44,263 nucleotides of DNA from a virus, in the IMG/VR virus record IMGVR_UViG_3300028844_005280, positions 1-44,263 of that record; one strand, 5' to 3'. Numbering within the stretch: position 1 is the stretch's first letter; each line of letters opens with the position of its first letter. Below the pieces are notes generated by a model. That model was not told where the DNA came from. It saw only the letters and a list, made by a program, of their open reading frames with translations, and searched no databases. This document shows, in pieces, positions 16,571 through 29,974 of the stretch. Position numbers and translations under genes: made by a program.

Positions 16571-16762
16571 ATGCAAACTCAAACAATTGCTTTCACAACT
16601 GAGAAGTTTTACTTCGAGTTTAAGATTGTAAGTGACTTAGATGTTGCTTACATAACCAAGAGAGCATTCAAAGGAACCAAGTTCAACGACCAGAGCACAA
16701 AGGTTACAGTCCAACAGGCTCGTGACTACTACGCAAAGGTCAAGACTGAGTCCGTAAGTTGA
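16571..16762 (+). CDS. Early small protein (63 aa)
   Basis: MQTQTIAFTTEKFYFEFKIV..., alternating hydrophobic/polar N-terminal strands and a helix (VTVQQARDYYAKVKTESVS). First gene of the early cluster, downstream of the Fur-like site. Its TGA stop lies inside the first tRNA-minihelix-like element (16757). No ribosome-binding site is obvious. Function unknown. Confidence 0.7.
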   Translation: MQTQTIAFTTEKFYFEFKIVSDLDVAYITKRAFKGTKFNDQSTKVTVQQARDYYAKVKTESVS

Positions 16763-16823
16763 TCCGTCAAAGCGGTAGGCCGGGTGCAAACCCCGGTCCA
16801 ACTATTGCCACAATCCCGTGGCA
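16757..16823 (+). other. tRNA-minihelix-like intergenic element 1 plus hairpin
   Basis: Closing stem AGTTG (16757-16761) / CAACT (16799-16803). Inside is a small hairpin CCG-TCAAAG-CGG (16764-16775), then a 7-bp T-arm GGCCGGG / CCCGGTC with 7-nt loop TGCAAAC (16785-16791). Position 16804 is the conserved A. A second hairpin TGCCAC-AATCCC-GTGGCA (16806-16823) follows. The upstream gene's TGA is within the closing stem. T-arm plus closing stem totals 12 bp, as in a tRNA acceptor/T minihelix. Confidence 0.7.
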
Positions 16824-16839
16824 TCTACTAGATCACATC

Positions 16840-17016
16840 ATGTATCCTGACAACCTCGAAGAATGTCTCAAGTATATTGTTGAGACTGCAGCCAACTTTA
16901 AACAAGTTGCTAAAGATGCAGGACATCCTGTTACTCTTGACGAAGCTTTGGTTATTGCTGTTGCTCAATTACAAGAGCGCACAGCTGATCAACGTTGTCG
17001 TGAAGAACTCGCCTGA
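16840..17016 (+). CDS. Early small helical protein (58 aa)
   Basis: Start at 16840 chosen because a longer frame would run through the preceding RNA element and because ATG follows the ATCACATC context common here. MYPDNLEECLKYIVETAANF... is a helical protein with a helix-turn (PVTLDEALVIAVAQL) and a charged C-terminus. No family recognised. Its TGA sits in the next RNA element. Confidence 0.66.
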   Translation: MYPDNLEECLKYIVETAANFKQVAKDAGHPVTLDEALVIAVAQLQERTADQRCREELA

Positions 17017-17069
17017 TGGTGTAGGAGGGGTTCGATTCCCCTCCCAGGTATTGCCACAATCCCGTGGCA
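17011..17069 (+). other. tRNA-minihelix-like intergenic element 2 plus hairpin
   Basis: Closing stem GCCTG (17011-17015) / CAGGT (17045-17049), with a short 8-nt insert and no small hairpin. The T-arm is GGAGGGG / CCCCTCC with perfect tRNA T-loop TTCGATT (17031-17037). Conserved A at 17050, then hairpin TGCCAC-AATCCC-GTGGCA (17052-17069). The upstream TGA lies at the edge of the closing stem. Confidence 0.72.
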
Positions 17070-17763: not shown

Positions 17764-17970
17764 ATGCAAGTTTTTGCAGTACACGAATCAGGCAATTGCG
17801 ATTGCGTATTTCCTGGCTACGTATCAGTCTGGCGCAACTACGACGACGCATATGCGGCGGCGGGAGAAGCGCAAGCCATGGATCCGGAGGCTTTTTACGC
17901 TGTTGAAACCATTGAGGAATCAGAACTCCAAGAGTTTTGGTTCTGGAACCACTACTTAACACTTGCCTGA
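17764..17970 (+). CDS. Early small acidic protein (68 aa)
   Basis: MQVFAVHESGNCDCVFPGYV..., then SVWRNYDDAYAAAGEAQAMD and an acidic Trp/Phe-rich C-terminus. Short beta hairpin followed by a helix; this resembles small proteins that relay a value or bind a partner, but no family is recognised. Its TGA lies in element 5. Confidence 0.66.
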   Translation: MQVFAVHESGNCDCVFPGYVSVWRNYDDAYAAAGEAQAMDPEAFYAVETIEESELQEFWFWNHYLTLA

Positions 17971-18026
17971 AGGTGAAGGAGGGGTTCGACTCCCCTCCCA
18001 GGTATTACCCCCAGCGGAGATGGGTA
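17965..18026 (+). other. tRNA-minihelix-like intergenic element 5 plus hairpin
   Basis: Closing stem GCCTG (17965-17969) / CAGGT (17999-18003); short 8-nt insert as in element 2. T-arm GGAGGGG / CCCCTCC with loop TTCGACT (17985-17991). Conserved A at 18004. The following hairpin is TACCC / GGGTA (18006-18010, 18022-18026), a two-sided change from the TGCC/GGCA stems of other copies. Confidence 0.7.
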
Positions 18027-18378: not shown

Positions 18379-18585
18379 ATGGCTGACTACGACAAATTCC
18401 GTAATCACATGGAAGAACCTGAGATTAGCGGTGCACTCTCTAGACTTACAGAAGACGACAAGCAATTAATTGCTAATGCCGCAACACTTGGCATCATGGG
18501 AGTCGGTACTGTTATTGCAGGACCAATGGTGGCAGTGCTTGGTGGTTGCCTTTGGGCAATCGACCGTGCACGACGCAACCCTTAA
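18379..18585 (+). CDS. Small membrane protein (68 aa)
   Basis: MADYDKFRNHMEEPEISGAL..., charged N-terminal helix, then a strong membrane segment (LGIMGVGTVIAGPMVAVLGG) ending in a basic RARRNP tail. One-TM, N-out or N-in not decided. Starts after the TAACATC context. Its TAA directly abuts element 7. Possibly an early membrane effector; function unknown. Confidence 0.66.
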   Translation: MADYDKFRNHMEEPEISGALSRLTEDDKQLIANAATLGIMGVGTVIAGPMVAVLGGCLWAIDRARRNP

Positions 18586-18654
18586 GCTGATTCGTTAACG
18601 CGAGTCCGGTGGTGCAAACCCACCGGCAGCTATTGCCTCCTGCAGAGATAGGCA
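18585..18654 (+). other. tRNA-minihelix-like intergenic element 7 plus hairpin
   Basis: Closing stem AGCTG (18585-18589) / CAGCT (18627-18631); insert TCG-TTAACG-CGA hairpin, a compensated version of CCG/CGG in other copies. T-arm CCGGTGG / CCACCGG with loop TGCAAAC (18613-18619). Conserved A at 18632; hairpin TGCCT / AGGCA (18634-18638, 18650-18654). Confidence 0.72.
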
Positions 18655-18673: not shown

Positions 18674-18961
18674 ATGATTGAATTCTATTTTCAATCCCAT
18701 CCATCTCTCATGGATGCATACATAGCTCGCTATGAAGATGATCTCATCGGATTAGTGACGCTAGTGACAGGACCAAAAGGCATCGGCCTGATGGGAACAC
18801 TAGAACCTGGTCGTGATGAAACGACTTACGAGGTTATGTTCCCAGGGTCTGATGATCCTATTGGTTACCTAACACTTGGTGAAACCGTTGGTATTATCAA
18901 GTACCTTCGATCTCAACTAATGCGTAAGAGATTAGAAGCTTGCGCTGAACTTACCAGCTGA
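18674..18961 (+). CDS. Early hypothetical protein (95 aa)
   Basis: MIEFYFQSHPSLMDAYIARY..., a mostly beta protein (VTLVTGPKGIGLMGTLEPG, YEVMFPGSDDPIGYLTLGE) with a C-terminal helix of basic and Leu residues. It looks like a compact single-domain protein. No family recognised. Its TGA sits at the end of element 8's closing strand. Confidence 0.67.
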   Translation: MIEFYFQSHPSLMDAYIARYEDDLIGLVTLVTGPKGIGLMGTLEPGRDETTYEVMFPGSDDPIGYLTLGETVGIIKYLRSQLMRKRLEACAELTS

Positions 18962-19033
18962 TCCGTCAAAGCGGGAGGCCAGGTGCAAACCCTGGTCCAG
19001 CTATTGCCTCCTCACTCTCTACACGAGGGGGCA
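18956..19033 (+). other. tRNA-minihelix-like intergenic element 8 plus hairpin
   Basis: Closing stem AGCTG (18956-18960) / CAGCT (18998-19002); insert CCG-TCAAAG-CGG. T-arm GGCCAGG / CCTGGTC with loop TGCAAAC. Conserved A at 19003. The following hairpin is longer: TGCCTCCT (19005-19012) / AGGGGGCA (19026-19033), 8 bp with one G-T pair. Confidence 0.72.
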
Positions 19034-19562: not shown

Positions 19563-19589
19563 CTAGGCATCCACTGGTGTAAGTCCTAG
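19563..19589 (+). other. Type-2 intergenic RNA motif, copy a
   Basis: Closing stem CTAGG (19563-19567) / CCTAG (19585-19589). Between them: CA, a T, a 2-bp CC-ACT-GG hairpin, TG, then TAAGT. Matches four to five other copies downstream in order of parts while the stems differ. It sits 21 nt before the next ATG. Confidence 0.55.
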
Positions 19590-19610
19590 TCACACCATTG
19601 AAGCTAACTA

Positions 19611-19826
19611 ATGAAACAAATCATCTGCACCAAGCCTGGACACTACATCCAACTAGATAGTTACAGCAGAGCACCTGAAGTCCCAGCAATTGTTTACTGG
19701 GGCATAGGTATATCTACTGCACTAATGCTAGTAACAGCAGCTATCTATGGTATTGAGAAGTATTCTCAAGAAGATACTAATGTATGTCCAACAGCAGCCT
19801 CGGCCTATTATGGGCCAGGCTGCTGA
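19611..19826 (+). CDS. Small membrane protein (71 aa)
   Basis: MKQIICTKPGHYIQLDSYSR..., then a membrane helix (about 26-47, VYWGIGISTALMLVTAAIYG) and a polar tail with two Cys (NVCPTAASAYYGPGC). The C-terminal Cys residues face outside if N-in. Co-directional with neighbours. Function unknown. Confidence 0.66.
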   Translation: MKQIICTKPGHYIQLDSYSRAPEVPAIVYWGIGISTALMLVTAAIYGIEKYSQEDTNVCPTAASAYYGPGC

Positions 19827-19860
19827 ACAACCATCAACTAAATCATCTATCAATCAACTC

Positions 19861-20100
19861 ATGTTTATCTATCAAACCTACGGCCCAACACAACTCGGTC
19901 GTAAAGAACGCATCGTTTACCACGGTCAGCCATCACAACAACTCCATTACGAAACATATGAAGGTGGCGAGTGGAGAGAAGTAGATGTCATCAGCTACAT
20001 GAACAATCTTCCAACTGATATGAAAGAGTTTGAAGACGAATGTAAAGATGCATTGACCGTTGGTGCACTACGGTACGATGACTATCTAAACTCTCTATAA
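19861..20100 (+). CDS. Early hypothetical protein (79 aa)
   Basis: Start at 19861 preferred over an upstream ATG at 19810 that would overlap the previous gene by 17 nt. MFIYQTYGPTQLGRKERIVY..., beta strands with basic and aromatic residues, then an acidic helix (TDMKEFEDECKDALT). No family recognised. Confidence 0.62.
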   Translation: MFIYQTYGPTQLGRKERIVYHGQPSQQLHYETYEGGEWREVDVISYMNNLPTDMKEFEDECKDALTVGALRYDDYLNSL

Positions 20101-20114
20101 CCATTGACCGTCCT

Positions 20115-20135
20115 GAGCATGACGTTAAACTGCTC
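20115..20135 (+). other. Small leader hairpin with GACGTTAAAC loop
   Basis: Stem GAGCA / TGCTC with loop TGACGTTAAAC, between the 20100 stop and the 20160 start. Same loop word as the hairpin at 16521 with a different stem. Confidence 0.4.
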
Positions 20136-20159
20136 ACGTACACCCTATCAAATCACACC

Positions 20160-20330
20160 ATGTCACTTATCAAACAGCACCTGTACAACCAAGCACTCCT
20201 TGAGGAGCTGCGTCAAGATTACTTCTTCATGCTCAATGACATAGCAGATGAGCAGGAAAGAGTAATGATGGAACTCATGGAGGAACCTTCCGACCAGCCC
20301 ACCATCAACACCAACACCACGACAACATGA
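20160..20330 (+). CDS. Small acidic helical protein (56 aa)
   Basis: MSLIKQHLYNQALLEELRQD..., helical, with a Met/Glu-rich part (ERVMMELMEEPSD) and a Thr/Asn tail. ATG follows AATCACACC, the local start context. Too short for a 60-codon cutoff. Function unknown. Confidence 0.6.
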   Translation: MSLIKQHLYNQALLEELRQDYFFMLNDIADEQERVMMELMEEPSDQPTINTNTTTT

Positions 20331-20409
20331 GCACAGCAACACACCACGATGATGATGTCATTGATGTCATCATCGTTCTCATTTCAATTCTTATTACTGA
20401 ACTAGGATC

Positions 20410-20787
20410 ATGCTTAACCAGGTCACCGAAAGCATTGCAGTCACCTTTGGATACACCCCGTTCCCAGAAGGTGAGCAAGACAAACAGTTCCAAGCAGAAA
20501 TCAACTACGACCCGCAGAAGAACACGCCGCCCAAAAGCGGTAGTGTCTATAGAAACAAGCAGGGAGTTTTTAGGATCTACTGGACACCAAGCGAAGAGCA
20601 TCCCACCTACGGACCAGATGAAAACGGAATGTCTTACGCCTACACAGTCGAAGGCTGGTACGATGTTCCAACCAATGGAGAAGTCGAAGAGGAATGCCTT
20701 GGAGAAGTAGCGCTCGATCCATGTGGAGAAAATGAACTAGAACCTGACCATCCAGATGCATGGCCCAGGCTTCTTGGCTTGATCTAA
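20410..20787 (+). CDS. Early hypothetical protein (125 aa)
   Basis: MLNQVTESIAVTFGYTPFPE..., probably beta-rich (SGSVYRNKQGVFRIYWTPSE, YTVEGWYDVPTNGE) with an acidic C-terminus (CGENELEPDHPDAWPRL). Chosen over an overlapping frame from 20327 because its composition is protein-like. Function unknown. Confidence 0.66.
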   Translation: MLNQVTESIAVTFGYTPFPEGEQDKQFQAEINYDPQKNTPPKSGSVYRNKQGVFRIYWTPSEEHPTYGPDENGMSYAYTVEGWYDVPTNGEVEEECLGEVALDPCGENELEPDHPDAWPRLLGLI

Positions 20788-20798
20788 CATCGTTAATC

Positions 20799-20834
20799 TC
20801 TAGGCATCTACCGACGGGTAGTGTAAGCCCTAGA
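20799..20834 (+). other. Type-2 intergenic RNA motif, copy b
   Basis: Closing stem TCTAGG / CCTAGA; inside CA, T, hairpin CTACC-GACG-GGTAG, TG, then TAAGC. Lies between the 20787 stop and the 20872 start. The internal hairpin is longer than in copy a and its sequence differs. Confidence 0.58.
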
Positions 20835-20871
20835 CATATAAGATAAACTTATCAGTCCGTTACTAATCACT

Positions 20872-21078
20872 ATGGAAACAACTAAGGCTTCAGATCACAT
20901 CATCACTGATGAACACATTGAATTTATCCTAGATGCTATGAAGCACTGGATGATTCACAAACCAAAGAGAACACGTAAAGATCGTGATTATTATCATCAT
21001 CTTAACTATGTATTTAGCAAGATAAGCCTCAGCCCATTCATTCAAACACTCAACTACAAACGTACTAAAGATCAATGA
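20872..21078 (+). CDS. Small basic protein (68 aa)
   Basis: METTKASDHIITDEHIEFIL..., helices with His, then a basic patch (KPKRTRKDRDYYHHLNYVF). The stop and next start overlap (ATGA). Possibly nucleic-acid binding; no family known. Confidence 0.63.
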   Translation: METTKASDHIITDEHIEFILDAMKHWMIHKPKRTRKDRDYYHHLNYVFSKISLSPFIQTLNYKRTKDQ

Positions 21079-21281
21079 GCATCCATCTAATCGTCACCGA
21101 GTCCGAGCAACAGGCCATCGTCAATGCCTTGGCTTTCTATAACGACTGGCACGCAACCGATTTGCCTAGTGACACCGAATCCAAAGAGCAGTGGCTGATG
21201 TCTTTCAGGGAAGACAACGGTGGCCGTGCTTGGAACGGTCCTATCGATCAACTTGCCACCAAGATTGCTACCAGTAAATGA
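21075..21281 (+). CDS. Small hypothetical protein (68 aa)
   Basis: MSIHLIVTESEQQAIVNALA..., a beta-helix-beta style protein with Trp residues. ATGA overlap with the previous gene and a 4-nt overlap with the next indicate translational coupling. Unknown function. Confidence 0.63.
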   Translation: MSIHLIVTESEQQAIVNALAFYNDWHATDLPSDTESKEQWLMSFREDNGGRAWNGPIDQLATKIATSK

Positions 21282-21421
21282 TCACTATCTATTACGACTG
21301 CGCTTTCTTGAACTCCAAAAGAGTATCCATTATCTTTTGTGAAAAGATGAAAGAAGAAGCACTTGTTGCTATTAAAAGAGGCGGTAGTAAAGTCACCGCT
21401 ATTGTATATGAAAACCAATGA
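21278..21421 (+). CDS. Very small protein (47 aa)
   Basis: MITIYYDCAFLNSKRVSIIF..., two strands and a helix (KMKEEALVAIKRGGSK), ending with a strand TAIVYENQ. A compact beta-alpha-beta pattern. Coupled to the preceding gene by overlap. Too short for a 60-codon cutoff. Confidence 0.58.
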   Translation: MITIYYDCAFLNSKRVSIIFCEKMKEEALVAIKRGGSKVTAIVYENQ

Positions 21422-21467
21422 AACGTTTATGACTATCTAATCGCTTCATCCAGACAATCTCCCAGAC

Positions 21468-21680
21468 ATGCAACCAGACATCCCAGACAATCTCCCAAAA
21501 GACGACATGCTAGCTGCCATGGCATTCGTTGCAAAGATGAAGGAGTCCGCCGATCGTATCGGAGCAGGGTTCGTCGGAGGCTTTACGGCAGCCGATGGAA
21601 CTAAATTCGTCATGACTAACATGAACGAAGAGGACACCATTGCATTAACACCCCAATCATTAAGAGAATCTAATGACTAA
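21468..21680 (+). CDS. Small hypothetical protein (70 aa)
   Basis: MQPDIPDNLPKDDMLAAMAF..., acidic/Pro-rich head, Ala-Met helix, then a Gly-rich strand region (GAGFVGGFTAADGTKFVM). The leader and first codons contain a near-repeat of CCAGACAATCTCCCA. Unknown function. Confidence 0.6.
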   Translation: MQPDIPDNLPKDDMLAAMAFVAKMKESADRIGAGFVGGFTAADGTKFVMTNMNEEDTIALTPQSLRESND

Positions 21681-21828
21681 ACCTTGTTTAAATGATGACT
21701 GGCAAATTGAAGAGCTAGAACATTTAGTGACAACAGCTCAGAAAGAATCAGTTCTTTTTTGGGTATTCGATAATCTTGATTATTCAATCTATGAACACCT
21801 TTGTTTCATCACTGGAGACGCAGACTAA
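21673..21828 (+). CDS. Small acidic protein (51 aa)
   Basis: MTKPCLNDDWQIEELEHLVT..., mostly helical, acidic and aromatic (VLFWVFDNLDYSIYEHLC). Overlaps the previous stop by 8 nt and the next start by one base (TAATG). Too short for common cutoffs. Confidence 0.58.
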   Translation: MTKPCLNDDWQIEELEHLVTTAQKESVLFWVFDNLDYSIYEHLCFITGDAD

Positions 21829-22103
21829 TGACTAAGAAGAAATCTCGCATCAATTTTGACAAAACCATTGCCGGATTTAATGTTTCTGAACATGGTCTCA
21901 AAAGCTACAGCAAAACATTCAAGTTAGGACCACTGTCCTTTACTGCGAATGTAAATAGTAAAGGTGCCCGTGGATCTTTGGCGATCCCCGGCACCGGAAT
22001 ATCATTTCGCAACTTACTACACACGGAGCTGCCATCGTTAGATGATTTCAAAACACCTAACCTACCTGAGTACAAGCAAGACGAGTGGACCGATGACAAT
22101 TAA
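21828..22103 (+). CDS. DUF4236-like protein (91 aa)
   Basis: Starts MTKKKSRINFDKTIAGFNVS. Residues ~28-60 (YSKTFKLGPLSFTANVNSKG, then SLAIPGTGISFRN) match the N-terminal pattern I associate with DUF4236 (K-G-aromatic strands followed by VPGTGIS). The family is common in bacteria and phages; function unknown. The upstream frame extension is rejected in favour of the TAATG-coupled start. Confidence 0.6.
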   Translation: MTKKKSRINFDKTIAGFNVSEHGLKSYSKTFKLGPLSFTANVNSKGARGSLAIPGTGISFRNLLHTELPSLDDFKTPNLPEYKQDEWTDDN

Positions 22104-22350
22104 ACTACCAAAGAGACTTCAACTACCAATTAAAGAGCAGCTTAATCTTTTCATTAAAGAGCACTATGACGCAATGACTCCTAAAGATCTATTCAATTTT
22201 GTTCATTACTATTCAACTAAAGAGCACTATGACGCAATGACTCCCGAAGATTTATTCAATTTTGTTCACTATTATTTAACTAAAGAGTATAACGATTTCA
22301 TGGACAAAGAAGTGGCTAAGTTATATGCGGAGTCTTCTTCTCATGAGTAA
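22093..22350 (+). CDS. Small protein with 21-residue tandem repeat (85 aa)
   Basis: MTIKLPKRLQLPIKEQLNLF..., followed by KEHYDAMTPKDLFNFVHYYS and nearly the same 21-residue unit again (KEHYDAMTPEDLFNFVHYYL), then a degenerate third copy (KEYNDFMDKE). The repeat is 63 bp in DNA (22156, 22219). Helical, with Tyr/Phe/His on one face. Starts inside the end of the previous gene. Possibly a protein-binding repeat; function unknown. Confidence 0.64.
   Translation: MTIKLPKRLQLPIKEQLNLFIKEHYDAMTPKDLFNFVHYYSTKEHYDAMTPEDLFNFVHYYLTKEYNDFMDKEVAKLYAESSSHE
22156..22281 (+). repeat. In-frame 63-bp tandem repeat
   Basis: Two copies starting at 22156 and 22219, differing at few positions, each coding for 21 residues; a third partial copy follows from 22282. 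Confidence 0.9.
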
Positions 22351-22495
22351 GAATGCAAAGCTAACTAAAGAACAGGTTGTAATCCTAAGGAGTTTAAACC
22401 ACATCCATGTGCAGCACATTGCATATGAATACAATGTCTCACGGAATACAATCGAGAGGGCCAGGCGATACCTAAGCTGGCCCAAGGTTAAATAG
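22343..22495 (+). CDS. Small helix-turn-helix protein (50 aa)
   Basis: MSKNAKLTKEQVVILRSLNH..., with HIHVQHIAYEYNVSRNTIER as a helix-turn-helix, followed by a basic ARRYL tail. This is the homeodomain-like HTH of resolvases and short phage regulators. The TAA of the previous gene overlaps the start. Too short for a 60-codon cutoff. Likely a DNA-binding regulator. Confidence 0.68.
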   Translation: MSKNAKLTKEQVVILRSLNHIHVQHIAYEYNVSRNTIERARRYLSWPKVK

Positions 22496-22654
22496 CCTAC
22501 CGAATCATTAAGACAATATTAAATAACCTCCTCCCCCTTAACAATCCCCCTCCGGGGGACAGCCACGACCACACTTATATAGATATATAACTATACTTAC
22601 ATAGACCTAGACAAGTCTATAAACTATCTACATTCACACCAACTCATTCCATCT
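22496..22654 (+). other. Intergenic region with two hairpins
   Basis: CCCCC-TCC-GGGGG at 22546-22558 and ATAGAC-8 nt-GTCTAT at 22601-22620, separated by an AT-rich stretch containing TTATATAGATATATAAC. No T-run follows the first hairpin. This may be a transcript boundary plus promoter before 22655. Confidence 0.4.
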
Positions 22655-22846
22655 ATGACCACATCTTCCTTCCAGCGTTCTGCTTTCCAAGCCTACCTAA
22701 CTGTCAGTGGTATGGCCGATGAAGCATCAGACTATGCAGCATCACTCAAGCCTGGTTCTTCTGAGTGGGACAATGCTTACTCAAGAGCATTCGCCTTGCG
22801 TGATGCAGCAATCAAAATCCTAGAGGTAAATTGCGATGCAGAATGA
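22655..22846 (+). CDS. Small helical protein (63 aa)
   Basis: MTTSSFQRSAFQAYLTVSGM..., Ala-rich helices with a Trp-containing loop (PGSSEWDNAYSRAFALRDAA). It overlaps the next start by 11 nt. No family recognised. Confidence 0.63.
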   Translation: MTTSSFQRSAFQAYLTVSGMADEASDYAASLKPGSSEWDNAYSRAFALRDAAIKILEVNCDAE

Positions 22847-23123
22847 ATTACTCGCTGTCGAATCAATCACCCTTGACTTTGTTGATGAACATGGGATTTC
22901 TACTTGGCTCGTTGTTGCAACCATTGCTGATGCACGGGTTGAACTACCTGCGAAACACAATCCACCAGACGATGCACACCCTGCTGAGTATGGGCCAGGC
23001 ATTTGTGAGGCAATGTTTCAGCTAGAAGATGGTGAACTGCCTCCTCCAGTCTTAGGTACCGAGCAAGATCAGATTGACTTTCTCATACCTTTAGATCTAG
23101 ATTGGCAGCTGATCGAAGACTAG
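22836..23123 (+). CDS. Small acidic protein (95 aa)
   Basis: MQNELLAVESITLDFVDEHG..., beta-rich acidic protein with Pro-rich loops (HNPPDDAHPAEYGPG) and an acidic C-terminus. Last gene before the structured RNA upstream of SSB. Function unknown. Confidence 0.64.
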   Translation: MQNELLAVESITLDFVDEHGISTWLVVATIADARVELPAKHNPPDDAHPAEYGPGICEAMFQLEDGELPPPVLGTEQDQIDFLIPLDLDWQLIED

Positions 23124-23130
23124 CCACACT

Positions 23131-23248
23131 GTCGGGAGTCCTACATCATTAGGTGCACCTAGTGATAGGCCATACAATACCTAGTCTGCAGCTAGGAAAA
23201 GCCAAGGCATGACAAGCATCAAGCACTTGTTAAGTTGATGCTCTCGAC
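23131..23248 (+). ncRNA. Branched structured RNA upstream of SSB
   Basis: A closing stem GTCGGGA / TCTCGAC encloses three hairpins. Hairpin A (23140-23169) has a TAGGTGCACCTA core and outer CCTA/TAGG. Hairpin B is CCTAG-TCTGCAG-CTAGG (23180-23196). Hairpin C is GCATCAA-12 nt-TTGATGC (23216-23241). This makes a four-way-junction-like fold of 118 nt. It is followed 23 nt later by a type-2 motif, then the SSB gene. No protein frame is convincing in this gap. Could be an sRNA, a leader switch or an origin element. Confidence 0.5.
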
Positions 23249-23271
23249 AAACAACAATTCAATAGGCATCA

Positions 23272-23295
23272 TCCCGCCAGATGTGTAAGACCTAT
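23272..23295 (+). other. Type-2 intergenic RNA motif, copy c
   Basis: Closing stem ATAGG / CCTAT; inside CA, T, hairpin CATC-CCGCCA-GATG, TG, TAAGA. It lies 30 nt before the SSB start. Confidence 0.55.
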
Positions 23296-23325
23296 ACAAG
23301 CTACTAACTAATTCTTTTTCTAACG

Positions 23326-24111
23326 ATGAACAAAGCTTACTTGACTGTCAACGTGACAGCAGATCCACAGCAGATTTACATCAGTGAATCACGCACGATT
23401 GTTACATGCAATGTTGAGATACCAACTGCAAACACACGTAATGTACCAACAAAACTTACTTACCAAGTCTGGGCTAACCAAGACAAGTTTCTCTCTGCTA
23501 TCTCAGCTGGTATGCAGCTCTACATCTCAGGAGCACAGCTCCGACATGACCTTAAAGAACGATCCTATACTCTTCATGATGGCAACTGGGTTATTGTTCC
23601 CACTGGACAATTCCCCCTGCTAAATGAAATTATTCTTAGTGGACGTTGTATTAAAGATGTAGACCTCAGTGATCCCCGTCAGTTCAAGACAACTGATAGT
23701 GGGTACATTATCTCATCTCAATCACTTAGTGTTAACCGAGGTAAGCAAGAGACTGATCTCTTTAACCTTAAAGCAATTACTAAATCAGATGCCAAGGTAC
23801 GCTATGCAGAATGGCTAGCTAACATGACACGGAAAGGAACAGGACTAACTGTTGCTGGCCGTATCTCTACCAGCTCATGGAAAGATCAGAACACAGGTGA
23901 ACTCAAATTTAATACTGAGATTCAAATCAATCAGATGACTTTAGCACCCAAGCCAAAGACAACTGAGATCCAACCTCAAGCTACTGTCTCATCTGATTCA
24001 GCACCTAAATCTCTTTGGGGTTCTAACACAGAATCACAAGTGGCTGAACCATGGGGTAGTAACACTGAAGGTTTACCTGATCTTCCTGCAACAGATAACA
24101 TTCCCTTCTAG
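23326..24111 (+). CDS. ssb: Single-stranded DNA-binding protein with two OB folds
   Basis: 261 aa. The N-terminal half (MNKAYLTVNVTADP..., TIVTCNVEIPTA, LTYQVWANQDKFLSAISAGM) and a second half (LNEIILSGRCIKDVDLSDPR, TDLFNLKAITKSD, GLTVAGRISTSSW) both show the strand order of OB folds. A disordered Pro/Gln/Ser linker with repeated LWGSNTE / PWGSNTE words leads to the C-terminus ATDNIPF, like the acidic SSB tip that binds partners. It coats replication intermediates. Start follows the branched RNA and copy c. Confidence 0.82.
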   Translation: MNKAYLTVNVTADPQQIYISESRTIVTCNVEIPTANTRNVPTKLTYQVWANQDKFLSAISAGMQLYISGAQLRHDLKERSYTLHDGNWVIVPTGQFPLLNEIILSGRCIKDVDLSDPRQFKTTDSGYIISSQSLSVNRGKQETDLFNLKAITKSDAKVRYAEWLANMTRKGTGLTVAGRISTSSWKDQNTGELKFNTEIQINQMTLAPKPKTTEIQPQATVSSDSAPKSLWGSNTESQVAEPWGSNTEGLPDLPATDNIPF

Positions 24112-24120
24112 AATAAACAC

Positions 24121-24153
24121 CTGGGCTTCGCTAGTTATGCGAGTAAATCCCAG
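24121..24153 (+). other. Type-2 intergenic RNA motif, copy d1 (tandem)
   Basis: Closing stem CTGGG / CCCAG; inside CT, T, CGC-TAGTTAT-GCG, AG, TAAAT. The CA/TG pair seen in other copies is CT/AG here, a compensated change. It starts 10 nt after the SSB stop. Confidence 0.6.
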
Positions 24154-24154
24154 C

Positions 24155-24197
24155 CTGGGCAGCTGCACGGATATGCAACCCGCAGCGTAAGTCCCAG
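24155..24197 (+). other. Type-2 intergenic RNA motif, copy d2 (tandem)
   Basis: Closing stem CTGGG / CCCAG identical to d1, with a longer internal stem GCTGC / GCAGC and the TAAGT tail. Because the two stems are the same, d1 and d2 could swap partners. It ends 10 nt before the next ATG. Confidence 0.6.
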
Positions 24198-24207
24198 ACT
24201 AAAACCT

Positions 24208-24603
24208 ATGAAAGTTTACGGTCTTTACACACGCAAAGATGGTAGACAGCACGTCATCCTTTACAAAGATGGCGTGCGAACTACTGTTAGTTATCCCAAG
24301 TATCTACTTGAACAGAAGCTTGGACGCTCACTCCTGCCGACTGAAACATGTGATCACATTGACAATGATCACACCAACAACTGTCTTGATAACTTACAAG
24401 TGTTGACACGTAGTGACAACGCCCGCAAACAAATGTCATTACAGCCTGCGGAAGTAGGAACTTTTACTTGTCCTGTTTGTAATTCTTCATTTACTAAGCA
24501 AATGAATTACATTCGAGCTAACCTTAAGCAGAACAAGTCTGGTCCTTACTGTTCCAGGTCTTGTGCAGGGAAGGGTAGTCACCCATCTAACAAGGGCGTG
24601 TAG
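24208..24603 (+). CDS. HNH homing endonuclease with C-terminal zinc finger
   Basis: 131 aa. An N-terminal beta region leads to the HNH core LPTETCDHIDNDHTNNCLDN, with DH..(x)..N pattern and LQVLTRSDNARKQ, typical of phage HNH_3 enzymes. The C-terminus (FTCPVCNSSFTKQMNYIRAN and YCSRSCAG) is a zinc ribbon that also appears at the N-terminus of the 25333 protein. Such genes are mobile and nick DNA near their insertion site. The stop TAG lies inside the tRNA at 24594. Confidence 0.83.
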   Translation: MKVYGLYTRKDGRQHVILYKDGVRTTVSYPKYLLEQKLGRSLLPTETCDHIDNDHTNNCLDNLQVLTRSDNARKQMSLQPAEVGTFTCPVCNSSFTKQMNYIRANLKQNKSGPYCSRSCAGKGSHPSNKGV

Positions 24604-24670
24604 TCCAATTGGCAGAGACATGGAGTTTAAGCCTCCACAAGTGTGGGTTCGAGTCCCTCCACGCCTACCA
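24594..24670 (+). tRNA. tRNA-Leu-like, anticodon UAA, short variable loop
   Basis: Acceptor GGGCGTG / CACGCCT with encoded A-CCA end (24667-24670). D-arm GTC / GAC with AATTGG loop; anticodon stem TGGAG / CTCCA with loop TTTAAGC, giving anticodon TAA (Leu). T-arm loop TTCGAGT with one mismatch in its stem. The variable loop is only five bases, whereas bacterial tRNA-Leu has a long one. The first 10 bases overlap the HNH gene and its stop codon. The tRNA fold is clear; the amino acid is less certain. Confidence 0.8.
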
Positions 24671-24691
24671 ACCTTAACCTGTTCTTAATTA

Positions 24692-25342
24692 ATGTCACAG
24701 CAAGTCAAACTAATTTGGGCCACACCAAATGCAGAAGAACTCATTGTCGATATGGCAAGAGTATCTAACCCAAGCAACCAAGGTAATCATGACAATGATG
24801 CAAAGCTCATTAAGTATCTGATTAAACATAAGCATTGGAGCCCATTTGAAATGGCTAACCTTTGCTTAGAGATCAATACAACCAGAGGGATTTCACCACA
24901 GATACTAAGGCATCGAAGCTTTACCTTCCAAGAATTCTCTCAACGTTATGCAAACACAAATGCAATTGGTCGCATCCATTGCCCTCAGCTACGCTCACAA
25001 GACATAAAGAACAGACAGAATTCTGTTGATGATCTCGAAAGCAAACTAGGTAAAAGTCAACTGGCTGACATCAAACGTCGCATTGCTATTCACTTTGAAG
25101 ATGCTGAGCATCTCTATCAAGAGTTACTTAGTAAAGGCGTGGCAAAAGAATCAGCTCGTTTCTTATTACCATCAGCTGTACCAACCAGGCTTTACATGAA
25201 CGGTACACTCAGATCATGGACACATTACATTGATCTGCGTAGTGCCAATGGTACACAACAAGAACACAAAGAGATTGCTGAGCAATGCAAAGTAATCTTC
25301 ACTGAACAATTCCCAATCATCTCATCTGCAGCATGGAACTAA
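24692..25342 (+). CDS. thyX: Flavin-dependent thymidylate synthase
   Basis: 216 aa, normal length. The ThyX signature RHRx7S is present: RHR at 73-75, then seven residues, S83 (RHRSFTFQEFSQ). SPFEMANL precedes it and the C-terminal FLLPSAVPTRLYMNGTLRSW is typical. It methylates dUMP to dTMP with methylenetetrahydrofolate and FAD/NADPH, supplying thymidine for phage DNA. Sits between two zinc-finger genes. Confidence 0.93.
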   Translation: MSQQVKLIWATPNAEELIVDMARVSNPSNQGNHDNDAKLIKYLIKHKHWSPFEMANLCLEINTTRGISPQILRHRSFTFQEFSQRYANTNAIGRIHCPQLRSQDIKNRQNSVDDLESKLGKSQLADIKRRIAIHFEDAEHLYQELLSKGVAKESARFLLPSAVPTRLYMNGTLRSWTHYIDLRSANGTQQEHKEIAEQCKVIFTEQFPIISSAAWN

Positions 25343-25839
25343 AGCAATCGCGTGGCACAATAATTCTTTCTTGTACTAAATGCGGGAAAGAATTTAATCG
25401 TCAAGCTTGTCAACACCGCGCCAACCTAAGGCGCGGTCGTACTAAAACATTTTGCTCTACCAAGTGTGCAGGTAGAGAACATAGGCAACCATTCAAAGTA
25501 AAGACTGAACCTAGCAGGATTAAAGCTGCTCGTGAAAGTTTCAGAGAAGCTTGTCCTAAATGTAAAGAAAGATCTTTGGCTGTTATCGAAACTAAAATTA
25601 CAGCGAAAGGATATAGAAGACGTAGAAAGAGTTGTTTAGAGTGCGGCTATCGCATGACAACAATTGAAATGCCTATTGATGATGTAAAGAATAAAGTTGA
25701 TACAGGAATAAAGAAAACAATTAGCAGCAACGCATGCACATCATGCGAACATAATGAGAATGAAGCTTGTGGCTTCTTTATCCCTGAGTACATGACTAAT
25801 GAATCCCACGACTGCAACCTGTATTCAAAGTGCACTTGA
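25333..25839 (+). CDS. Multi-zinc-ribbon protein with NrdR-like segment
   Basis: 168 aa, Cys-rich. Residues 14-45 (CTKC..., HRANLRRG, FCSTKCAG) match the C-terminal zinc ribbon of the upstream HNH enzyme. Residues 74-111 (CPKCKE..., GYRRRRKSCLECGYRMTT) resemble the zinc ribbon of NrdR, the bacterial repressor of ribonucleotide reductase genes. The ATP-cone domain of NrdR is absent. A third Cys group (ACTSCEHNENEACG) is at 135-146 and a last pair (C161, C167) at the C-terminus. Overlaps the ThyX end by 10 nt. May bind DNA in nucleotide-metabolism control; not proven. Confidence 0.66.
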   Translation: MELKQSRGTIILSCTKCGKEFNRQACQHRANLRRGRTKTFCSTKCAGREHRQPFKVKTEPSRIKAARESFREACPKCKERSLAVIETKITAKGYRRRRKSCLECGYRMTTIEMPIDDVKNKVDTGIKKTISSNACTSCEHNENEACGFFIPEYMTNESHDCNLYSKCT

Positions 25840-25999
25840 TGAAATCTATCGCGGACAAACTAATGTCGCAGTCAAAGCTAAGGAGGTTGATCTCTCCTTA
25901 GCTGAGCTAAAAGAACTTTTCAATCAATACGTATTGAATCACCCAATCTGTTCGAGTGATTGGGAGAACGATATTGAATTGAGTTGGCCTTGGGTTTAA
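25799..25999 (+). CDS. Small hypothetical protein (66 aa)
   Basis: MNPTTATCIQSALDEIYRGQ..., helical with a KEVDLSLAELKELFNQYVLN helix and a Trp-rich C-terminus (WENDIELSWPWV). Overlaps the previous gene by 41 nt, so the start is uncertain. No family recognised. Confidence 0.55.
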   Translation: MNPTTATCIQSALDEIYRGQTNVAVKAKEVDLSLAELKELFNQYVLNHPICSSDWENDIELSWPWV

Positions 26000-26245
26000 T
26001 GGAAAATTCAGTGGCTCTCGCGCCTACCTGATCTAGCTATCTTCCAGTAGCGAGTAAAGCTTCATGTATAAAATTACATGAAACGTAGACGAGTGGTCTA
26101 CTACTAAAACATAACATTAAAAAGCCAGGCTCTCACACCTGGCTTCATTGTTAGTAGTAATCTATCCGGCTCACGCACCTGCAATAGTTGATGACCCAGC
26201 TACTAGATCTGGGAGGACAAGACGAGTATAAAGTACTCGCTTATC
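26000..26245. terminator. Hairpin-rich intergenic region with transcript terminator
   Basis: No gene. Hairpins: TTCATGTA-6 nt-TACATGAA (26061-26082), GTAGAC-GAGTG-GTCTAC (26085-26101), AAGCCAGG-8 nt-CCTGGCTT (26122-26145, strongest), CCCAG-9 nt-CTGGG, and CGAGTA-TAAAG-TACTCG near 26221-26245. A part at 26035-26061 resembles the type-2 motif. The 26122 hairpin probably ends transcription; no long T-run follows, so efficiency is uncertain. Confidence 0.5.
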
Positions 26246-26392
26246 TTATTCGACTGATGAGCCAGCGGCGATCCTTTCTCTGTCTTTCTTAAGCTCTTTC
26301 TCAAGACGTTGTTCTTTCTTAAACTTGTCTAACAAATGAGTAAGCAAAGCAGACTGGGAGTCGTAAGCTACACCACGATAGGTAAGGGTCAT
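26246..26392 (-). CDS. DUF4278-like small protein (48 aa)
   Basis: A longer frame exists, but the ATG at 26392 gives MTLTYRGVAYDSQSA, matching the MxLTYRGxxY opening of DUF4278, a family almost confined to cyanobacteria and their phages. The rest is a charged helix (LDKFKKEQRLEKELKKDRER). It lies opposite to the plus-strand replication genes. Function unknown. It supports a cyanobacterial host. Confidence 0.72.
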   Translation of the reverse strand: MTLTYRGVAYDSQSALLTHLLDKFKKEQRLEKELKKDRERIAAGSSVE

Positions 26393-26539
26393 TGGAGTTC
26401 TCCGATAAAACAAGCCCCGTTCCAAGCCTGTTGTTATGCGCCTCTTGACAGAGGTGAACGTCCTTTTATTATAGGACATCTTTAATTTCATGGGCAGTCT
26501 TGACGTAAGCCCCATGCAACTCACATCACACCACACATC

Positions 26540-27322
26540 ATGACACTACTCAAGTTCTCAACCGGCAATGCCAAGCTAGGCAAGCGTCTCATCTTCTCAC
26601 TACCAGCAGGGTACACCTGCCCTAACGCTGGTGTATGTAAGACATTCTCAGATCGAGTCACAGGTAAGATCCAAGACTTACCACAGACCAACAACACTGA
26701 CGCTGCAGCATACCGTTGCTTTGCAGCTAGCAGTGAAGCACGTAGTCCACAATGCCGTGCAGCACGTTGGCATAACTGGGACTTACTAAAAGAAACCATG
26801 ATCCCAGTGGAAGATCCTATCCATAAGATCGTTGCTGTACAGGAACTAATCACTGCATCAATCAATGCAAAGGATCGCAACCACAAGATTGATTTGGTTC
26901 GCATCCATGAGTCAGGTGACTACTGGTCAGAGCTTTACTTCCTTGCATGGCTACGTGTTGCACGTATGGATCCAACACGTAAATACTATGGATACACAAA
27001 ACAGTTACAACTGTGGCTTAATAGTATCGATGAGATTCCAGAAAACTTTTATCTCACAGCATCGATGGGTGGCAACTTAGACCCTATGCTTAAGTCGCAT
27101 GCACATCAGTTCAAACGTATTTCTTATGTCGTCTACTCAGAGATGGAAGCTAGCAATCTGGGTCTACCAATTGATCACAATGATGAGCACTGTTTTGGTA
27201 ATTCACCGTTTGCACTTTTAGTTCATGGCACACAACCAAAAGGATCTGATGCTGGTAAATCTATCCAGCAACGTAAGAAAGAAGGAGGCTTTGTTGGATA
27301 CCATTCCAGCAAAAAAGGTTAA
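26540..27322 (+). CDS. Phage gp88-like protein (260 aa)
   Basis: Begins MTLLKFSTGNAKLGKRLIFS then LPAGYTCPNAGVCKTFSD, the opening I know from the phage 'gene product 88' family (LSFGNAKL.K....SLPAG.TCPGA). Cys-rich start (C26, C32, C57, C72) and central VRIHESGDYWSELYFLAWL. The product's role in phages is unestablished; metal binding is likely from the Cys pattern. Starts after the ACACATC context. Confidence 0.72.
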   Translation: MTLLKFSTGNAKLGKRLIFSLPAGYTCPNAGVCKTFSDRVTGKIQDLPQTNNTDAAAYRCFAASSEARSPQCRAARWHNWDLLKETMIPVEDPIHKIVAVQELITASINAKDRNHKIDLVRIHESGDYWSELYFLAWLRVARMDPTRKYYGYTKQLQLWLNSIDEIPENFYLTASMGGNLDPMLKSHAHQFKRISYVVYSEMEASNLGLPIDHNDEHCFGNSPFALLVHGTQPKGSDAGKSIQQRKKEGGFVGYHSSKKG

Positions 27323-27452
27323 GCCTTGTAACAAATGTGGGAGCACAGATCGTTATGCTCCCCGTACTAATAACAGCCTGGGCAACTGCAAACGTTGTGC
27401 CAGGCGTCAAGCAAACCTTTACTACAAGAGGAAACTAACTAATGGAAACTGA
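27294..27452 (+). CDS. Small zinc-ribbon protein from a TTG start
   Basis: TTG at 27294 lies 5 nt after GAAGGAGG, giving about 52 aa that begin DTIPAKKVKPCNKCGSTDRY and end ANLYYKRKLTNGN. Pairs CNKC and CKRC form a zinc ribbon almost the same as that opening the next gene, so it looks like a cut-off copy of it. It overlaps the end of the gp88-like gene and the next ATG. The SD-like sequence also codes KEGG in the other gene, so the start is tentative. Confidence 0.5.
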   Translation: MDTIPAKKVKPCNKCGSTDRYAPRTNNSLGNCKRCARRQANLYYKRKLTNGN

Positions 27453-27861
27453 TCCGTGCGTTAAGTGCGGCAGCACTAGGCGTGCCAAGCCACGTCCAGG
27501 TAGAAAGACTGGTCACTGTATTGATTGTGCTAATGCTCGTTCAAAAAAGTGGGAAAAGAATAACCGTGAACGAGTTAAAGAAGTACAAATTAACTACAAG
27601 AAAAACAATCTTGAAACCTGGAAAGCAAGCAAGATAAGATCTAAAAATAAAGAACGAATAAAAAGACCAGTAGAAAATAAAGCTCGTCGAATAGTTTACG
27701 CAGCAGTCATACGAGGAGACTTACCCCGAGTCTCAACGTGTGACTGTGTAGACTGCGGCATTCAAGCCGTAGATTATCACCATGAGGACTATTCCAAACC
27801 ACTGGAAGTAGAACCTTTATGCAGAATGTGTCACATCAAACGACACAATCCTGACAACTAA
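27442..27861 (+). CDS. HNH-type endonuclease with N-terminal zinc ribbon
   Basis: 139 aa. N-terminal METDPCVKCGSTRRAKPRPG and CIDC form a zinc ribbon. A basic linker (NNRERVKEVQINYKKNN) follows, then an HNH-like core CDCVDCGIQAVDYHHEDYSK and EPLCRMCHIKRH at the C-terminus, with H-H, C-C and H-H pairs. Such small enzymes are mobile nickases of phages. Adjacent to DNA polymerase, a usual homing site. Confidence 0.76.
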   Translation: METDPCVKCGSTRRAKPRPGRKTGHCIDCANARSKKWEKNNRERVKEVQINYKKNNLETWKASKIRSKNKERIKRPVENKARRIVYAAVIRGDLPRVSTCDCVDCGIQAVDYHHEDYSKPLEVEPLCRMCHIKRHNPDN

Positions 27862-27882
27862 CTAACCCTTTGCTACTATTCA

Positions 27883-28134
27883 ATGACTACTACAGCTTCG
27901 ATGTCTTACTTAATCACCACTGAAATTAAAGGCGTGCCGCACGCAATTAGTACCAACTCAGAGAAAAAGAAGTTTGAATTGATTCCAATTAAAACTGATT
28001 CACAAATTGCTAAAGCTTTTTGTGCACCACATCAAACAGGCGCTTACAATATATTGAATTGGATTAATAAGAATGATAGAAAGCTTGCCGCCAAACATCT
28101 TGAAGTTCAGCCCGAAGCTAAATTCCTCCATTAA
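27883..28134 (+). CDS. Small hypothetical protein (83 aa)
   Basis: MTTTASMSYLITTEIKGVPH..., beta-rich first half, then a helix (AYNILNWINKNDRKLAAKHL). The last 62 nt overlap the start of DNA polymerase in another frame. No family recognised. Confidence 0.6.
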   Translation: MTTTASMSYLITTEIKGVPHAISTNSEKKKFELIPIKTDSQIAKAFCAPHQTGAYNILNWINKNDRKLAAKHLEVQPEAKFLH

Positions 28135-29941
28135 AAAAGCCTACGTATTTGATATTGAAACTGATGGCCTGTATGACGAAGCTACTAAAATCCACTGCAT
28201 TGTTTTCTACGACATCATCGGAGACCGCACTTATGAGTTTGGGCCTCGTGTTATTGATGCTGCTTTGCTTTGTTTGGCTGAAGCTGATCTTTTAATCGGC
28301 CACAATATTACCAACTACGACATTCCGGTCATAGAAAAACTATGGCCGGAAACTTTTACCAAGAAACCTTTCCCTCAAATCATTGACACGTTACTTTGCA
28401 CCCGGCTCATCTGGCCCAAGGAAAAACTCTACGATCTTGATACGGAGCAGTACAGTTCGGTGCCGCCGAATCTCAGAGGATCAGCTGGTCTTAAAGCCTG
28501 GGGCTACCGTCTCAGTGACAAGAAGATCAATTTCAAAGAGTTTTCTACTTACTCACAAGAAATGCTTGACTACTGCAAACAAGATGTTTCAGTCACAACC
28601 AAGTTATTTAATCACATTCAAATGCAGAACATTGACCACAAGGCTTACCAGCTGGAGCACTCGCTTGCTCATTGCATTCAAAGACAAATTAGAACAGGCT
28701 TTCCTTTTGATATTGATAAATGTCTTGCTGTTGTGGATGACCTTGAGTCTGAGAAAGCAAAACTCGAAGAAGAACTAAAGACATTATTCCCACCCATTGA
28801 AACAGAAACTTGGTTTACTCCCAAAGTAAACAATACCAAACGTGGTTATGTAAAAGGTGTGCCTTTCCGTAAGGTACACAGTGAAGAATTTAATCCAGGG
28901 TCAAGGCAACAGATCACTGATCGTTTAAGAAGTAAGTATGAATGGGTACCTGAAGACGTAACAGATAAAGGTAATGCAATCTTGAATGATGAAGTCCTTG
29001 CTCAACTTCCATACCCTGAAGCTAAGCCTTTGTCCAGGTATATGTTGTTAAAGAAACGCCTGGGCCAAATGAAAGAAGGTAACAATGCTTGGTTGAAACT
29101 AGTAGACGAAGACAGTGTTATGCATGGAGATCTAATTACTAATGGTTGTATCACAGGCAGAGCTAGTCATCGTAATCCCAACATGGCTCAGGTGCCTGCT
29201 GCTTATTCACCTTATGGTAAAGAGTGTAGAGAATTATTTCATGCTCCCAATGATTGGATCTTAATTGGTTCGGATGCGAAAGCATTGGAGTTGAGGTGCT
29301 TGGCAGGTTATTTAGCTTTATGGGATGATGGTGAATATGGAAATGTTGTTATCGATGACACGCAAGACATCCATACCTATAACCAAAAGATGTTTGGAGT
29401 GGGTACAAGAGACATCAGTAAGCGTCTTCTTTATGCTGTTCTTTATGGTGCTGGCTTTCTTAAGGCGGGTAGCATTGTTAATCCAAATGAAAAAGATCCA
29501 GACGAACTTAGAAGTTTTGGAAGAACAGCAATCAATTCATTCCTTAAAGGAATACCAGCATTACAAGAACTTAAACGCCAACTTGCAGCGACTCTTGGCT
29601 CACGAGGTTTTCTCATTGGCCTTGATAAGAGACCGCTTTATTGCCGTTCTGAATTTAAAGCATTGAATGTTTTGTTACAAGCTGCAGGTGCAGTAATAAT
29701 GAAACAAGTAGTTATTAATATCCATGAAGAATTAAATGATGCGGGCTATGTCTATGGTAAGGATTGGGTACAGCATGCTTTTATCCATGATGAAATTCAA
29801 ATGTCTTGTCGCCCAGGGATAGAGCAAGACTTAATCCCATACATATTAAATTCTTACGTAATGGCCGGAGAAGGTTTTGACTTCTTATGCAAGATCGAAG
29901 GCGACGTAAAGACAGGCCACAGCTGGTATGATACGCACTAA
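28073..29941 (+). CDS. DNA polymerase, family A, T7 type with exonuclease
   Basis: 622 aa. Exonuclease: FDIETDGL (D27, E29), IGHNITNYDIPV and YCKQDVSVT. Polymerase: motif A DAKALELRCLAGYL, with DDGEY nearby; motif B KRLLYAVLYGAGFLKAG; motif C HAFIHDEIQ. The LELRCL..(x)..DGEY pattern and short exonuclease resemble T7 gp5 rather than bacterial Pol I, which has a 5'-nuclease. It replicates the phage genome with the primase-helicase and SSB. Start overlaps the previous gene by 62 nt. Confidence 0.93.
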   Translation: MIESLPPNILKFSPKLNSSIKKAYVFDIETDGLYDEATKIHCIVFYDIIGDRTYEFGPRVIDAALLCLAEADLLIGHNITNYDIPVIEKLWPETFTKKPFPQIIDTLLCTRLIWPKEKLYDLDTEQYSSVPPNLRGSAGLKAWGYRLSDKKINFKEFSTYSQEMLDYCKQDVSVTTKLFNHIQMQNIDHKAYQLEHSLAHCIQRQIRTGFPFDIDKCLAVVDDLESEKAKLEEELKTLFPPIETETWFTPKVNNTKRGYVKGVPFRKVHSEEFNPGSRQQITDRLRSKYEWVPEDVTDKGNAILNDEVLAQLPYPEAKPLSRYMLLKKRLGQMKEGNNAWLKLVDEDSVMHGDLITNGCITGRASHRNPNMAQVPAAYSPYGKECRELFHAPNDWILIGSDAKALELRCLAGYLALWDDGEYGNVVIDDTQDIHTYNQKMFGVGTRDISKRLLYAVLYGAGFLKAGSIVNPNEKDPDELRSFGRTAINSFLKGIPALQELKRQLAATLGSRGFLIGLDKRPLYCRSEFKALNVLLQAAGAVIMKQVVINIHEELNDAGYVYGKDWVQHAFIHDEIQMSCRPGIEQDLIPYILNSYVMAGEGFDFLCKIEGDVKTGHSWYDTH

Positions 29942-29942
29942 G

Positions 29943-29974
29943 GCAAGGGCATCCATTCGGTGTAAGTCCCTTGC
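29943..29974 (+). other. Type-2 intergenic RNA motif, copy e
   Basis: Closing stem GCAAGGG / CCCTTGC (7 bp); inside CA, T, CC-ATTC-GG, TG, TAAGT. It begins 2 nt after the polymerase stop and is 26 nt before the next ATG. Confidence 0.62.

Follow-up and report, generated by a model that had tools for sequence, protein, structure and literature searches.

The leader of phage T4 gene 32 mRNA carries a small pseudoknot upstream of the gene for the phage single-stranded DNA-binding protein (SSB), followed by an unstructured stretch up to the start codon. In phage T7, the intercistronic sites of RNase III are hairpins with an asymmetric internal loop lying between cistrons. A recently described RNA-guided phage system, VIPR, pairs a RAMP protein (Vipr) with guide RNAs (vrRNAs) that are described as having 5-nucleotide (nt) YNNGG repeats and in some arrays are reported to be interspersed with hammerhead ribozymes (PMC13142463). 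The fold of a flavivirus exonuclease-resistant RNA (xrRNA) can block bacterial RNase J1 in vitro (PMC5760640). Here we describe a small two-stem RNA motif that recurs in the IMG/VR virus record IMGVR_UViG_3300028844_005280 (44,263 bases, hereafter the window) and stands at the borders between RNA units of phage transcripts, VIPR loci among them. The window derives from an S-EIV1-like virus, a freshwater cyanophage whose nearest named relative is Synechococcus phage S-EIV1 (KJ410740; 64% identity in the family A DNA polymerase), and its motif region holds the replication genes SSB, HNH, ThyX, GP88 and polymerase.

The motif consists, in order, of a variable closing stem (P1) closed by GG/CC, a C-G pair, an A bulge, often a U.U pair, a variable hairpin (P2) of 3–9 bp and a 3' bulge of 5 nt, UAAGU. 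A first-pass annotation, made from the letters of the window alone, had drawn the same secondary structure, to which we add the A bulge after the C and the U.U as the commonest next pair. Across 145 covariance-model matches, P1 has at least five pairs ending in GG/CC and is followed by C and then A (133/145); the next position is U opposite U in most copies and G-C, C-G, A-U or G-U in others, and leads into a pyrimidine-purine pair, a P2 of very variable length and a G. The 3' side reads UAAG in 145/145, then U or C, then CC, an invariance that is overstated because the covariance model imposes part of the consensus; the searches by which loci were found left the stems unfixed.

A strict descriptor matched 155 times in 84 DNA-polymerase-related loci (1.57 Mb) and once in first-order Markov shuffles, with 154 of the 155 matches on the strand of the polymerase gene. 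The covariance model, run at E ≤ 0.5 on related viral loci, found its 145 matches in 72 loci, each on the same strand as the neighboring polymerase gene. The covarying closing stems noticed at first pass are borne out by these matches, in which both sides changed in 218 cells as against 69.8 ± 5.7 in shuffles; the covariation score is 0.387, and slid partners reach 0.12 at most. Because a covariance model favors pairing, we also measured pairing free of selection on P1, using a core-only pattern (GGCATCC..GGTGTAAGTCC, stems left free) run over IMG/VR and 85,000 cellular genomes. In IMG/VR it matches at least 118 stretches, most of which have the full stem. Among the 98 viral matches listed, the pair adjoining GG/CC is Watson-Crick in 94 (46 expected from composition), the next in 90 (48 expected) and the third in 71 (34 expected). 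The cellular set holds 14 stretches, with Watson-Crick pairing in 5 of 14 against 3.5 expected, and these bacterial matches look like chance. Since stem pairing lies far above expectation in the viral set and not in the cellular one, the motif is viral and real; it is a strand-specific and covarying RNA structure. A comparison of G.U with A.C mismatches, as a sign of RNA rather than DNA, had too few cells to discriminate.

Seven copies lie in the window, all on the plus strand. Every one of the six reported at first pass exists, and six falls short of the full count by a copy that had been overlooked. Copy 1 (19563..19589; CTAGG CATCCACTGGTG TAAGT CCTAG; 38.8 bits in the covariance model) and copy 2 (20799..20834; TCTAGG CATCTACCGACGGGTAGTG TAAGC CCTAGA; 32.2 bits) are followed by copy 3 (23262..23295; ATAGG CATCATCCCGCCAGATGTG TAAGA CCTAT; 26.6 bits), whose start had been misplaced at 23272 and which stands 30 nt upstream of the SSB gene (23326). 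Copy 4 (24121..24153) begins 9 nt past the SSB stop codon; its reported CT/AG variation is real, it also has UAAAT in place of UAAGU, and it is detected by the descriptor alone, being absent from the covariance-model matches at E ≤ 5. Copy 5 (24155..24197; CAG..CG type; 30.2 bits) follows it in tandem, 10 nt before the HNH gene (24208). The overlooked copy 6 (26489..26516; CATGGG-CAGTCTTGACG-TAAGC-CCCATG; 34.6 bits) precedes a GP88-family gene (26540) by 23 nt and has no clear same-strand gene close upstream. Copy 7 (29943..29974; GCAAGGG CATCCATTCGGTG TAAGT CCCTTGC; 40.7 bits) begins 1 nt past the DNA polymerase stop codon, with the next ATG (30000) 25 nt downstream.

The surroundings of copy 6 hold further features. 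A Glutamine-II riboswitch (RF01704) at 26409–26463 lies on the minus strand, divergent from the motif, and heads a minus-strand gene; a similar arrangement upstream of the motif is visible in L004, L005, L008, L009, L010, L064 and L072. A promoter candidate upstream of the copy (TTGACA-16-TATTAT, at 11/12 the best match of the region) was rejected: it is common only to the close relative L005, other orthologues are without it, and it overlaps the antisense of the riboswitch.

The motif stands at borders of RNA units: copies occur between a stop and a start codon, between a coding sequence (CDS) and a tRNA and, in other phages, between a vipr gene and a vrRNA guide array. S-EIV1-like genomes mostly carry their copies clustered in one stretch per genome, and 54 of the 102 copies of this group that do not precede tRNAs have an ATG 20–35 nt downstream, across a G-poor leader. 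Of 38 copies that precede tRNAs, 37 do so within 1–4 nt; the tRNA is tRNA-Leu(UAA) in 37 cases and tRNA-Asn, in a different phage, in one. In most of these the stop codon called upstream lies at about 215 nt, a noisy distance taken from simple open reading frame (ORF) calls, whose 150–250 nt class probably includes spurious longer ORFs. tRNA-Leu(UAA) is the commonest tRNA in the loci examined (75 of 95 tRNAs), and the one in the window (24594–24670) has no motif ahead of it. In 43 of 95 cases from phages outside the S-EIV1 group, the motif begins 0–5 nt past a stop codon. About 18 contigs, grouped by common downstream sequence, carry it between a decoration-like gene and a capsid gene, whose protein in one tested contig is 66% identical to that of S-CBWM1. 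Another copy stands after a portal gene, in a phage with a terminase similar to those of Bacillus and Clostridioides phages. A 244.7-kb record holds two copies; there the motif and an adjoining small ORF sit inside a direct repeat of about 670 bp with two near-identical copies (L137 1–2000, minus strand).

Among the core-pattern matches listed, the gene directly before the motif in 40 contigs is phrog_4652, the motif abutting or overlapping its stop codon, and this neighborhood is kept even in lineages with 25–33% identity. The protein has no Pfam match, yet it proved to be Vipr: it matches SUSP1 Vipr (PDB 36pp) at E 5.8e-39 with a profile and 4.5e-25 with a single sequence, and the model predicted for it (mean pLDDT 89.4) has a shape resembling that of Csm3/Cas7 RAMP proteins. 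In these loci the noncoding sequence that follows the motif shows a 5-nt periodicity, as published for vrRNAs (PMC13142463), and NNGG repeat runs, where they could be parsed, start within 12 nt of the motif in 17 of 27 cases. In two loci (L188 and L194) the motif heads most or all of the successive vrRNA-like units. We had considered phrog_4652 as a universal partner of the motif and rejected it, for it is absent from S-EIV1-like phages, including the window record and the complete S-EIV1 genome; what follows the motif copies of the window is a short leader and an ATG. VIPR is therefore one setting of the motif and not its definition.

VIPR loci with 5-nt-periodic noncoding stretches in IMG/VR contigs include L181 (3081–3970), L112 (7880–6860, minus strand), L179 (2638–3880), L188 (2242–3660) and L085, among others. 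In the AT-rich L188 and L194, the repeat consensus looks like NNTTG or a similar word, not NNGGY, and a GCCTG-TACTTA(A)-CAGGC hairpin forms the end of each unit. The idea, taken from the L188 hairpin loops, that the UAAGU bulge pairs with a downstream ACUUA was not adopted. ACTTA is enriched downstream of the motif in the S-EIV1 group and weakly at most in other phage groups, and the enrichment is ambiguous because GACTTA also occurs in the anticodon arm of the tRNA-Leu(UAA) downstream of 37 copies.

The gap after the polymerase gene provides a comparison between genomes. Of 61 such gaps, 10 hold the motif, 24 hold an H-type pseudoknot of quite another fold and 27 hold neither by regular expression. 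P1 and P2 differ in sequence among the 10 motif-bearing gaps and keep their pairing. One of the 27, L054, has a motif overlapping the polymerase stop codon; in the remaining 26 (one without a called ORF) the distance from the stop to the following ORF is −1 to 14 nt, and in element-bearing gaps it is mostly 45–76 nt. SSB (PF00436) is the gene that comes next in representatives of the motif class and of the pseudoknot class alike. The pseudoknot, present in the window at 20109..20138 on the plus strand (CGUC-C-UGAGCAU-GACG-UUAAAC-UGCUCA; no Rfam match), pairs in its second helix at 165, 179 and 178 of 183 copies against 133, 137 and 139 expected from composition, and its descriptor finds 183 copies on the plus strand and 5 on the other in polymerase-related loci. 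We read the alternation of motif and pseudoknot as a functional exchange at a border, a correlation and not a proof. That some phages keep several RNA folds for one gap position suggests a generic way of dividing long transcripts.

The pseudoknot also occurs in polymerase-related loci such as L047, L036 and L014, upstream of SSB and other genes. A further kind of border element in the window is tRNA-like and was the "first element" of the first-pass annotation (16757–16809, 17007–17055, 17961–18009, 18585–18637 and 18956–19008). Following short ORFs, it has a short stem enclosing a T-arm-like hairpin (GGGGTTCGATTCCCC or CCGGGTGCAAACCCCGG), then a TTGCC..GGC(A) hairpin or pseudoknot, then the next ATG. 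The statement that the motif replaces this element in gaps from 19.5 kb on holds by position; the pseudoknot at 20109, a third element type, also lies there.

The RNA family appears to be new. At gathering score, no Rfam 15 family matches the motif, and the window and its relatives yield only tRNA and Glutamine-II. A suggested likeness to cobalamin or FMN riboswitch cores is not supported: neither family matches even at E ≤ 10. The motif is present in related genomes, and with no Rfam match the first-pass finding stands by the conditions set for its refutation. S-EIV1, with two copies, is the only named phage shown to carry the motif; S-CBWM1, the named phage closest to one motif group, was examined over 19 kb and does not have it there. 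With a consensus 30-mer as query, blastn gave partial matches only, mostly inside coding sequence, and no description of the motif was found in the open PMC literature, a search outside which most subscription papers and supplements fall. Hundreds of copies exist in environmental phages, none in Rfam, with no sign of the motif in 85,000 cellular species genomes. The neighboring genes (SSB, HNH, GP88, capsid, tRNA, vipr) form no consistent regulon, and a motif that stands before genes of unrelated kinds, before tRNAs and before arrays of guide RNAs does not look like part of a metabolite regulon.

We think it probable that the motif acts in cis to mark the border between RNA units of phage transcripts. 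The unrelated neighbors, which further include a portal gene, argue for a generic role, and copy 6, with no clear gene on its own strand a short way upstream, seems to go with the downstream RNA; we infer that the motif works for that RNA. As to mechanism, the A bulge and the UAAGU bulge would form a tight internal loop and a compact fold, which could serve as a mechanical roadblock insulating the next unit from the previous message. After an endonuclease cut upstream, the motif would halt 5'-to-3' decay, for example by RNase J, and the CDS, tRNA or guide RNA beyond it would remain protected. That the xrRNA fold can block RNase J1 in vitro makes such a mechanism physically possible, and we advance the predicted roadblock with reserve. 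It suits all junction types, and a ribozyme or cleavage site suits them nearly as well. Two observations weigh against the roadblock: the folding energies predicted for the motif are modest (z −0.65 to −2.76), so that a mechanical block would need tertiary structure; and phages outside the S-EIV1 group space the motif more tightly from the upstream stop codon, which would fit a 3'-end role too. Taken as a whole, the best explanation we can offer, and a tentative one, is an element that acts in cis at borders, probably as a compact roadblock by which the RNA downstream is insulated or protected.

The motif might instead be cut, as a self-cleaving ribozyme or an endonuclease site in or next to the UAAGU/A-bulge loop, so as to separate cistrons, tRNAs and vrRNA units. 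The main argument for this somewhat doubtful reading is the position at the head of guide-RNA units in L188 and L194, comparable to that of the hammerheads reported in other VIPR arrays (PMC13142463). A dozen or so near-invariant nucleotides concentrated in one internal loop between freely varying stems, and a spread over phages of unrelated hosts without a common protein, point the same way. However, neither hammerhead nor other Rfam ribozyme models match in the window or its relatives, a natural ribozyme of two short stems and a single internal loop would be unusual for its small size, and before tRNAs RNase P already cuts. That the motif is a new class of very small self-cleaving ribozyme (two stems and a CA/GUAAGU loop), a general punctuation in phages of unrelated hosts, is unlikely; if true, it would release mRNAs, tRNAs and VIPR guide RNAs and be interchangeable with compact elements such as the pseudoknot.

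A translational operator or insulator would have its internal loop bound by a ligand or by a protein of phage or host, and would so regulate or uncouple translation of the following gene. This reading would suit the G-poor leader of 20–35 nt, the presence of elements in gaps without close gene coupling, and the SSB gene among those downstream, which in relatives has a pseudoknot leader. We consider it improbable, since what follows the motif is a tRNA for 38 copies and a noncoding guide array for about 40, neither of which is translated, and the downstream genes are functionally unrelated. Equally improbable is a stabilizer of the upstream message, in which the motif, after cleavage downstream, would become the 3'-terminal hairpin and block 3'-to-5' exonucleases. 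The stop-codon spacing outside the S-EIV1 group speaks for it, and an RNase P cut at an adjoining tRNA would put the motif 1–4 nt from the new 3' end; against it stand copy 6, the distant upstream stops in most tRNA cases, and the tight spacing from motif to ATG in the S-EIV1 group. Finally, a DNA-level repeat or mobile element, or an intrinsic terminator (GC-rich stem and U tract), would explain multiple copies dispersed in gaps but is very improbable given the single strand, the compensatory changes at the same gap across genomes, and the lack of a terminator-like site at any of the seven copies, with only mild T enrichment downstream.

Helix 36 of 16S rRNA is a GGG-UUAAGU-CCC hairpin and likewise places UAAGU between GG and CC, whereas the motif has a hairpin inserted. 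With the T4 gene 32 leader it shares a small structured RNA and a leader before an SSB gene, but the motif is a bulged two-stem hairpin found before many unrelated genes and noncoding RNAs, and our pseudoknot is the closer analogue. Unlike the RNase III sites of T7, the motif is far shorter (often 8–12 bp in total), its internal loop is strictly conserved, and it occurs in phages of unrelated hosts. The likeness to xrRNA (PMC5760640) is one of proposed function only, that of a compact viral fold halting 5'-to-3' decay; sequence and secondary structure are unlike. The motif is no YNNGG repeat, occurs without VIPR too and is not mentioned in the main-text parts of PMC13142463, and it nevertheless lies exactly at the border between vipr and the vrRNA array in at least 40 contigs, which ties it to this RNA-guided system as a candidate border or processing signal of guide RNAs.

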